Positions 54,045 through 56,846 of a stretch of DNA of 64,000 bases are shown piece after piece. The stretch is from Planctomycetaceae bacterium (lineage in GTDB: Bacteria; Planctomycetota; Planctomycetia; Planctomycetales; Planctomycetaceae): the NCBI GenBank assembly GCA_019636285.1, contig JAHBXV010000021.1, forward strand, positions 1 to 64,000, written 5' to 3'. The position numbers and the translations under genes are program-made. Within the stretch, counting starts at the first letter, position 1. The number at the start of each line of letters is the position of its first letter. The notes beneath the pieces are model-generated. The model searched no databases, was not told where the DNA came from, and worked only from the letters and a program-made list of their open reading frames with translations.

Positions 54045-54233
54045 TCAGCCGCACTCGGCTGCGATCAGGATCTCATCACGACCGGCGTTGACGCATTCAC
54101 TGCGGCGGATGGACACGTGTTGGGGGGCACTGACGCCGATCTGAACCCGGCCCCCCTGCGTCCGGACGATGCGAATCACCACATCGTTTCCGATTTTGAT
54201 CTCTTCGCCGCACTTTCGACTGAGCACGAGCAT
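54045..54233 (-). CDS. csrA: Carbon storage regulator CsrA
   Basis: 62 residues with an excellent ribosome site (GGAGGAG). The whole chain is the small CsrA fold: MLVLSRKCGEEIKIGNDVVI, then VQIGVSAPQHVSIRRSE, with the RNA-binding Arg near VSIRR. It binds GGA motifs in mRNA leaders to control translation. It is not in an operon; flagellar genes, its usual company, are absent here. Confidence 0.95.
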   Translation of the reverse strand: MLVLSRKCGEEIKIGNDVVIRIVRTQGGRVQIGVSAPQHVSIRRSECVNAGRDEILIAAECG

Positions 54234-54447: not shown

Positions 54448-55026
54448 TTATTGCAACGAAACCACGCGCCAACCCGTGACCACCCAAACCCGTCGCCCCC
54501 ACTGGAGCCACCAACAGCGACATTTGGGACGTAGGATCCGAGGCGTCAATTCCCATGCAGGATCATACACGAAGAACGCACATTTGTACAGTTTTTTGTT
54601 CACGAAAAGTAATGTGATCTGGCACTTCAGGAAGCCGCCCGGCCAATCGTCGGCAGCCGAGCCGCAAGTCGCCAGCCACTCGCAGAACGCGATGGCGTCA
54701 CTCGCGTGGACGGGATGACCTGTCGGCGGGCGGTCGCCAGCGAATTCGTCAAAGGCCCGCGCAAACCGGTCACCCAGGCGTTTTGCGACAGCAGGTATCA
54801 GATGGGCGACGGCCTGACGGCGTTTGGCGAGAAGAGCCGTGGCGACCGTTGGCAGGCCCCGCTCCCGGAGACCTTGCAGTACCGTGAGTGTGTGCTGGTC
54901 GACTCCCATTTCGGCTTGCAGCCGAGCCGGTTTTTCGGCGAGTTCAGATCGCAAAGCGCGGCTGGTACACAGTCGCACCATGGCCGCCTGTTGACGTGCC
55001 AGTTGCTCGACGTCGTCGGAACTCAT
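54448..55026 (-). CDS. Probable partner protein of the DUF692 enzyme (DUF2063-like)
   Basis: 192 residues from MSSDDVEQLARQQ, whose ATG overlaps the stop of the DUF692 gene. The N-terminal helices (VEQLARQQAAMVRLC, ALRSELAEKPARLQAEMG) recall DUF2063-type proteins, which deliver the peptide substrate to MNIO enzymes. The segment DAIAFCEWLATCGSAADDW is Cys-containing, and the C-terminus (KCAFFVYDPAW, PKCRCWWLQWGRR) is unusual, rich in Trp, Cys and Arg. The assignment rests mostly on the operon position. Confidence 0.6.
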   Translation of the reverse strand: MSSDDVEQLARQQAAMVRLCTSRALRSELAEKPARLQAEMGVDQHTLTVLQGLRERGLPTVATALLAKRRQAVAHLIPAVAKRLGDRFARAFDEFAGDRPPTGHPVHASDAIAFCEWLATCGSAADDWPGGFLKCQITLLFVNKKLYKCAFFVYDPAWELTPRILRPKCRCWWLQWGRRVWVVTGWRVVSLQ

Positions 55027-55880
55027 GGGACGACGCCCGCGACAGTGACGGACGACTTCCAGAGGCGGCGGGCGCGGGCGAGTTCGTCGGCCAGTTCCTG
55101 AAACGGGGGAAGGTTCTCGTCTCGTTCGAGAATAATCCCTTTCGGAATCGTCGCGCGGCACACGGCTTCGAGCAACTGCCAGACCGGCTCCGGAGTCGCC
55201 CGGGAATGACTGTCGATCAGCCGTCCGTTCTCTTCATGACCGCCGACGAAATGGAGTTGGACAACACGGTCGAGCGGCAGGCGTTCGAGGAGGTTAAGCG
55301 GATCGAAGCGATGATTGATGGAGTTCGTGAAGAGATTGGTGACATCGAGCAGGAGGCCGCAATCGGTCCGGTCGAGAAGTTCTCCGAGAAAAGCCGCTTC
55401 GTCGAGTTCGTCGTGCGGCCATGTCAGTTCATAGGTGATGTTCTCGAGGATGAGCGGGACGGGAATCGCGTCACGAGCCCGCTTCACGTTTTCGACGAAC
55501 ACCTTGATCGCCGTACGGGTTCGTGGCACCGGCAGCAGATGACCGGCTTCCACGCCACCCGCCTGCGTAAAGGCGACATGCTCGCTCCACCAGAGAGGCC
55601 GTACATCTTCAACAACTTCGGCAAGTCGGGTGAGGGTCCACTGGTCGAGGCCCTCTGCTGATCCCAAGGACAGGGACAATCCGTGCGGAATCAGCGGATA
55701 CCGGGACTTGAGGAGATCCAGTTCATCCCGTTTTGCGGACGAGGGCTCGAAGTAATGTTCGGCGGTGATTTCGAGAAAGTCGCAGGTCTCGGGCTGAGCA
55801 AAGAGGTCCGCGCGAAAGGGCGAGCGAAATCCGAGTCCCACTCCCAAAGACGGCAAGCCTTGCAGCACGGCGGATGACAT
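55023..55880 (-). CDS. DUF692 multinuclear non-haem iron oxidative enzyme (MNIO)
   Basis: 285 residues. TIM-barrel protein with the DUF692 ligand set: IPHGLSLSLGS, LWWSEHVAF, LILENITYE, GLLLDVTNLFTN, VVQLHFVGGHEE, DSHSRA and ILERDENLP. These match the His, Asp, Asn and Glu metal ligands of the MbnB/TglH-type enzymes, which use two or three irons to rewrite cysteine residues of a peptide or protein substrate (thioamide, oxazolone or related). It sits between a Cys-tailed membrane protein (3-base gap) and the partner (4-base overlap), so the cysteine tail is the expected substrate. Confidence 0.9.
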   Translation of the reverse strand: MSSAVLQGLPSLGVGLGFRSPFRADLFAQPETCDFLEITAEHYFEPSSAKRDELDLLKSRYPLIPHGLSLSLGSAEGLDQWTLTRLAEVVEDVRPLWWSEHVAFTQAGGVEAGHLLPVPRTRTAIKVFVENVKRARDAIPVPLILENITYELTWPHDELDEAAFLGELLDRTDCGLLLDVTNLFTNSINHRFDPLNLLERLPLDRVVQLHFVGGHEENGRLIDSHSRATPEPVWQLLEAVCRATIPKGIILERDENLPPFQELADELARARRLWKSSVTVAGVVP

Positions 55881-55883
55881 GCC

Positions 55884-56846
55884 TCAACCTCCGCAGCCAC
55901 CACACCCACCGCCACAACCCCCTCCGCCCCCACAGCCGGTTCCGCAACTGGAGCTGAAACCCGCGCCACAGCCACCCCCGGACGAGGCGGCGGCGCGCTG
56001 GTACGCATCGTGCAAAGAGGCGAACGCCGTCCCCTGAAGAGCCACGACGCCAAATAATGCACATCCCAGTAGAAAAGCAGGATCTGGGGCGGCGCCGATG
56101 GCGGTCGACCTGACAGCGGAACGGGAGTCGGCGAAGGCGGTTTCCCAGCGTTTCAACTGCAACCGCCCGGCGGCGCTGAGACGTCGTCTGGCGGTGACGA
56201 TCATGAGGACGATCACGCTGATCGCGGTGAGCGCGACGAGAAACCCGAGGTTCCAATGATCGGAGCGAATGGCGGCCGCGATTTTGTACCCGGCGAGGCC
56301 AATCAGCAGGAGACTTCCGACCACGCGCGCGGTTCGCGACACGGTGAGCGTTTCTTCGGATGTTAACAGTCCCTCTTCACGAAGGGATGTCTCCAGATGC
56401 TGCATGTCCTCTCGCAAGGCCGTCTGAAAGTCTGAGCGAAAGACGACGGCTGGCTGGCGGGGTTTATGGCCAATGGTCTCCAGAAGTGTCGTCGCGACAG
56501 GATGAAGATCTGCGACGCCCTCGCCACTGCCGACGGTCCTCAGCACTTTTGATTTCAGCAGCCCCAGGGCCCGGGGTTCGTCCGCGATCGTCACGAGGCC
56601 GCGTTGCATCAGGTCAGCGACCGCTAATCGCGTGACGTCAGGAGGACCGCCGCGCAAAAAGGCGACTTCGTAGGGATCCGGAGGGCCGTCGATGACCGGC
56701 GGCTCAACGGGTGACGGCGGAACCAGCCAGCGGACCGCGAGGCCGGAGGCGACCAGAACCATGACGGCGAAGCCGACATAGACGGCCAGGAAATCCGGGC
56801 CGCGCATCGTGGCGACGGGGTTGTCGAACAGCCAGTCCCAGGGCAT
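55884..56846 (-). CDS. TIGR04222-type membrane protein with Cys/Gly-rich C-terminal tail
   Basis: 320 residues. One membrane helix near the N-terminus (FLAVYVGFAVMVLVASGLAVRWL), a cytosolic helical domain (residues 60-165: AVADLMQRGLVTIADEP, LRTVGSGEGVADLHP), two more helices near 170-215 and one near 265-285. The last 33 residues are almost only Gly, Ser and Cys, with six cysteines spaced 8, 4, 6, 4 and 3 apart. This matches the TIGR04222 membrane family as I know it. The tail is a plausible substrate of the downstream MNIO, whose gene starts three bases after this stop. Confidence 0.8.
   Translation of the reverse strand: MPWDWLFDNPVATMRGPDFLAVYVGFAVMVLVASGLAVRWLVPPSPVEPPVIDGPPDPYEVAFLRGGPPDVTRLAVADLMQRGLVTIADEPRALGLLKSKVLRTVGSGEGVADLHPVATTLLETIGHKPRQPAVVFRSDFQTALREDMQHLETSLREEGLLTSEETLTVSRTARVVGSLLLIGLAGYKIAAAIRSDHWNLGFLVALTAISVIVLMIVTARRRLSAAGRLQLKRWETAFADSRSAVRSTAIGAAPDPAFLLGCALFGVVALQGTAFASLHDAYQRAAASSGGGCGAGFSSSCGTGCGGGGGCGGGCGGCGG

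Follow-up and report, generated by a model that had tools for sequence, protein, structure and literature searches.

The system closest to the one described here was proposed by Antoine et al. 2025 (PMC12452194), in which subsets of TIGR04222 proteins are putative substrates of MNIO (DUF692) enzymes through their C-terminal Cys/Ser/Gly regions, with PME-type 2 proteins as partners. In that study, about one third of TIGR04222-bearing genomes were without an MNIO, the tail was placed in the periplasm from AlphaFold models, and one of the two modelled examples was a planctomycete protein (Pirellula staleyi ADB18956). Other described MNIOs offer further points of comparison. In the bufferin and captophorin systems, an MNIO (BufB, HvfB or FonB) is paired with a PME-type 1 protein and acts on Cys residues that in many cases precede Gly. 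In captophorins, EGKCG-type motifs have their Cys converted to 5-thiooxazole (PMC13097082), and N175, D242 and H244 are essential in HvfB, with activity abolished on mutagenesis (PMC13419390). TglHI (3-thiaglutamate) and MbnBC (methanobactin) likewise consist of an MNIO and a helical partner, and their substrates are short precursor peptides.

We analyzed a 64,000-nucleotide stretch of DNA from a Planctomycetaceae bacterium (contig JAHBXV010000021.1; hereafter the window) in which a TIGR04222 membrane protein, an MNIO and a small partner protein are encoded as a trio on the same strand (Table 1). The coordinates confirm the tight spacing that had been read from the sequence alone, with a gap of 3 bases between the TIGR04222 and MNIO genes and an overlap of 4 bases (ATGA) between the MNIO and partner genes. 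The window genome (6.37 Mb, 99.8% complete) carries one MNIO gene and one TIGR04222 gene, side by side, and no other Cys-rich ORF or candidate short precursor was found in the ORF list of the window operon. A csrA-like gene (MLVLSRKCGEEIKIG...), recognised by eye, follows the trio on its strand (54045-54233).

Table 1 Features of the TIGR04222-MNIO operon in the window
Feature	Coordinates	Strand	Basis
TIGR04222 membrane protein	55884-56846	(-)	320 aa; NCBIfam TIGR04222 E 5.3e-27, 94.9 bits, curated cut-off 43
MNIO enzyme, proposed tail-modifying oxygenase	55023-55880	(-)	285 aa; PF05114 (DUF692) E 1.4e-88
MNIO partner, PME-type 2-like	54448-55026	(-)	192 aa; conserved in homologous operons; fold match TglI
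Gly/Ser/Cys tail, residues 288-320, proposed substrate region	55887-55985	(-)	sequence; conserved in homologues

Similar to the clusters of Antoine et al. 2025, the locus combines a Cys/Gly/Ser-tailed TIGR04222 protein with a neighbouring MNIO and has no PME-type 1 (DUF2063-type) partner; it differs in that the tail is predicted here to be cytoplasmic rather than periplasmic. The features that mark bufferin and captophorin clusters, a Sec-signal small precursor with DUF2282 or EGKCG together with a PME-type 1 protein, were not found in the trio, where the candidate substrate is instead a membrane protein. This also distinguishes the locus from TglHI and MbnBC, with which its proteins share low sequence identity. 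The sequence-only reading had implied that a membrane-protein tail as MNIO substrate was new, but the central idea is already published (PMC12452194), and our analysis strengthens, qualifies and extends it. What is new here is the linkage at the level of an enzyme clade, the predicted fold of the partner, the one-way association of enzyme and tail, and a topology prediction contrary to the published one.

The MNIO matches the PF05114 profile over its full length (positions 1-261 of 263). When it was aligned to 3bww, TglH and MbnB, its metal-site His/Asp/Asn/Glu set aligned with that of 3bww, in agreement with the metal-ligand set first noted from the sequence, and H66, H101, H114, E146, D179, N182, H210, D223, H225 and E252 are invariant in eight TIGR04222-linked MNIOs. 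In our reading of the 3bww alignment, window residues N182, D223 and H225 would correspond to the essential N175, D242 and H244 of HvfB. Against the BufB model the enzyme scored 243.7 bits, under the 310-bit cut-off.

The last 33 residues of the TIGR04222 protein (SSGGGCGAGFSSSCGTGCGGGGGCGGGCGGCGG) carry the six Cys that had been described, at positions 293, 301, 305, 311, 315 and 318, with spacings of 8, 4, 6, 4 and 3. Each is followed by Gly, and the tail includes A, F and T in addition to Gly, Ser and Cys. This pattern extends to the homologues. In composition-preserving shuffles, which give approximate figures since a composition rule was used to delimit the tails, 35% of Cys were followed by Gly, compared with 77% of Cys in 91 distinct tails, and 117 Cys spacings of 1-2 were expected, compared with 4 observed; close spacing is thus avoided. 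CGGC was found within the last 15 residues in 74 of 89 tails. By analogy, the Cys-Gly tails resemble known 5-thiooxazole sites, some of which are also Cys that precede Gly (PMC13097082). We rejected a simple DNA repeat artefact as the origin of the tail, because the underlying 15-bp array is weak (72% matches), Gly and Cys are encoded by mixed codons, and the tail is conserved across phyla. The fold of the TIGR04222 protein gave no usable match in the PDB.

Sequence comparison gave no Pfam or NCBIfam match for the partner, no DUF2063 profile match, and no informative match in the PDB. For its AlphaFold model (pLDDT 79, low confidence in the C-terminal 33 residues), the best PDB matches among 350,542 chains were to TglI (probabilities of 0.98 and 0.92, best E 0.14), with NGO1945 (3dee) at rank 11 and, weakly, MbnC at rank 14 (E above 0.1). 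These E-values are weak, but we judge it unlikely that three MNIO partners would appear by chance among the best matches to so many chains. A TglI/NGO1945-like fold (top hit probability 0.98, E above 0.1) with no DUF2063 match is what defines a PME-type 2 protein, and the partner is probably of this type. At two loci (L058:1246-2643 and L063:3473-4753), the MNIO and partner domains are fused in one ORF. The end of the partner had been noted as rich in Cys and Trp. Trp172 is invariant in 22 partner homologues; the terminal Cys (K-C-R-C) are not conserved, and we therefore rejected them as a conserved metal site. The N-terminal helices of the partner (alignment A4, profile positions 12-40) show a weak similarity to the models for nitrile hydratase alpha, LigA and Frankia_peptide, domains that have a RiPP leader-like role as well.

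We then asked how widely the trio occurs. Public genomes were searched with the aligned sequences of the eight TIGR04222-linked MNIOs (A1), and 80 MNIO loci were retrieved. A TIGR04222 gene is present in 66 of them, lying upstream of the MNIO in 63 and downstream in 3; this proportion reflects the TIGR04222-linked queries, which favour this clade, and should not be taken as the frequency among MNIOs at large. The TIGR04222 gene is sometimes present in two or three tandem copies beside the MNIO, and almost every MNIO-linked copy has the Cys tail. The linked loci belong to about a dozen phyla, among them Cyanobacteriota, Acidobacteriota, Planctomycetota, Pseudomonadota, Verrucomicrobiota, Armatimonadota, Chloroflexota, Actinomycetota, Vulcanimicrobiota and Myxococcota; in a difference from Antoine et al. 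2025, our clade sample is rich in cyanobacteria and acidobacteria rather than in actinomycetes. The partner profile was present in 54 of the 66 TIGR04222-bearing loci, and several of the others have a divergent form, so that at least this fraction of the loci has a partner; the published figure for TIGR04222 clusters overall is 10% or more (PMC12452194).

The linkage follows the phylogeny of the enzyme. When 117 MNIOs were placed in a tree, the 71 TIGR04222-linked enzymes all fell into one 75-row clade (SH-aLRT 88, with two starred subclades), and the TIGR04222-link label required 5 changes on the tree compared with 36.7 in shuffles. Of the four unlinked members of this clade, L123, L127 and L133 have an MNIO and a partner and no TIGR04222 gene was found in the 4 kb upstream, while the contig of L170 begins ~340 bases upstream. 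The sequence-only reading had proposed the conservation of trio and tail as a check. MNIOs of this clade almost always lie beside a Cys-tailed TIGR04222 protein, throughout about a dozen phyla, which supports that reading.

The reverse does not apply. At the level of whole genomes, for which linkage was measured in planctomycetes only, a TIGR04222 protein scored above the cut-off in 18 of 392 genomes. Counting the window, 8 of 17 Cys-tailed planctomycete copies are adjacent to an MNIO and 9 are not. Four of the nine non-adjacent genomes (G352, a single contig; G242, 99% complete; G324; G006) lack any PF05114 match in their assemblies, and the other five possess MNIOs that all lie outside the TIGR04222-linked clade. 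The planctomycete tails with and without an MNIO are nonetheless alike, with a median of 6 Cys each and Cys-Gly order in 98% and 84%, respectively. The association is thus one-way: the clade MNIO nearly always accompanies the tail, whereas the tail is not dependent on the enzyme. The sequence-only reading had named as grounds for its own refutation that homologues with the same tail would usually lack the DUF692 gene, and this goes halfway to being the case, as 9 of the 17 planctomycete tails have no adjacent MNIO and, among the MNIOs found, their genomes have no clade member elsewhere. Since near-alike tails occur in MNIO-free genomes, the tail can be useful without the clade MNIO, which we interpret as a specialised modifying enzyme for a tail whose Cys-based function is older.

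The location of the tail bears on how it could meet the enzyme. The AlphaFold model of the TIGR04222 protein (pLDDT 88) has three hydrophobic helices and a disordered tail. Combined with hydropathy, it places TM1 at ~19-41, a folded domain at 58-157, TM2 at ~174-194 and TM3 at ~201-217. A fourth hydrophobic stretch was found by hydropathy at 257-275, where the model shows a short helix of 15 residues (256-270). If this helix spanned the membrane, the tail would lie outside, as stated by Antoine et al. on the basis of their own models, and an MNIO-modified tail would be translocated to the periplasm. This differs from our preferred reading in location alone and agrees with it on modification. 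We hold the periplasmic placement to be possible rather than probable, because the fourth stretch is less hydrophobic (octanol median of ~-1.9 compared with -5 to -10.5 for the TMs) and carries acidic residues in the homologues (~1 per 16 residues compared with ~0.1 in the TMs), and we judge that it probably does not span the membrane. K/R residues are densest in the segment that follows TM3, and they were more numerous in the inside than the outside flanks in 44 of 44 aligned homologues (mean 7.4 and 1.5, respectively), a comparison of flanks unequal in length and one that is neutral by itself, since the TM2-TM3 loop is K/R-rich as well. Together these features favour an N-out, domain-in, C-in topology, with the tail predicted to be in the cytoplasm.

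Our combined findings suggest, with a probability of roughly two in three, that the MNIO and partner of this operon modify Cys-Gly sites in the tail of the membrane protein. The clade-wide linkage and the MNIO-type partner argue for the tail as substrate, as the sequence-only reading had it, while the persistence of tails without an MNIO argues against it, as do the three clade loci (L123, L127 and L133) in which MNIO and partner have no TIGR04222 gene in the 4 kb upstream. The same persistence, with near-identical Cys-Gly tails lacking an adjacent MNIO and four assemblies in which no MNIO was found, would be expected if the tail worked unmodified, its thiolates binding metal or sensing redox, and the MNIO acted only in some lineages or on another substrate. 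This is unlikely given that clade MNIOs hardly ever occur apart from a Cys-tailed TIGR04222 protein and that the trio is tight, with no further Cys-rich ORF in the operon. The TIGR04222 protein could also be a membrane accessory, such as an exporter, anchor or receptor, for a different MNIO product rather than the substrate itself, a role that would suit a large folded membrane protein and the existence of some paralogues without tail Cys (e.g., L068). Retention of the Cys tail in nearly all MNIO-linked copies, and an operon in the window with no short precursor, make this the least probable of the explanations, and we give it little weight.

Under modification of the tail, the operon would yield a membrane-anchored protein plus a two-protein MNIO machinery. 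The partner may keep the substrate in place and adjust the iron centre, which is mixed-valent diiron in characterised relatives, and the MNIO would convert tail Cys to an oxidised heterocycle, e.g., 5-thiooxazole, or to another MNIO product. The outcome may be a tethered tail at the membrane that binds a soft metal, perhaps copper, or is redox active. A cytoplasmic tail would be in the same compartment as the enzyme and, once modified, would not have to be exported. The full scenario is tentative, and in its entirety rather doubtful: in a widespread system, an MNIO would modify the cytoplasmic tail of an integral membrane protein in place, producing a tethered thiooxazole-like metal or redox site and not a released RiPP, with the tail working unmodified elsewhere and the enzyme as an add-on to an older function. 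Modification of the tail would carry MNIO chemistry beyond short peptides, to membrane proteins of about a dozen phyla, in a role that may differ from copper buffering by bufferins.

Several additional observations were made at the homologous loci. A voltage-gated K+ channel-like gene lies upstream of the trio in 18 cyanobacterial loci (L097, L100-L109, L111, L112, L114, L116-L118 and L165), some with a weak, below-cut-off C-terminal zinc-ribbon match. A nucleotidyltransferase-like gene is present in 21 loci from several phyla, in many of them just upstream of the TIGR04222 gene (L095, L096, L099, L110, L137, L140, L141, L146-L149, L153, L156, L159, L160, L164, L166, L168, L171, L173 and L174), and is absent from the window. 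Neither gene matches any window ORF, and both were rejected as parts of the window system. Five TIGR04222 proteins of ~500 aa (L052, L053, L054, L055 and L061), none of them MNIO-adjacent, have an extra N-terminal helical region, which we take to look like plant/bacterial GRDP (DUF1399), a likeness left unconfirmed by Pfam, which did not recognise the extension. The paralogue without tail Cys (L068:5983-6858) comes from a genome (G107) that also has a Cys-tailed, MNIO-linked copy. At Nostoc loci, including L106, L107 and L118, tandem TIGR04222 paralogues bear long SSC/GGGSSC repeat tails with up to 14 Cys per tail.
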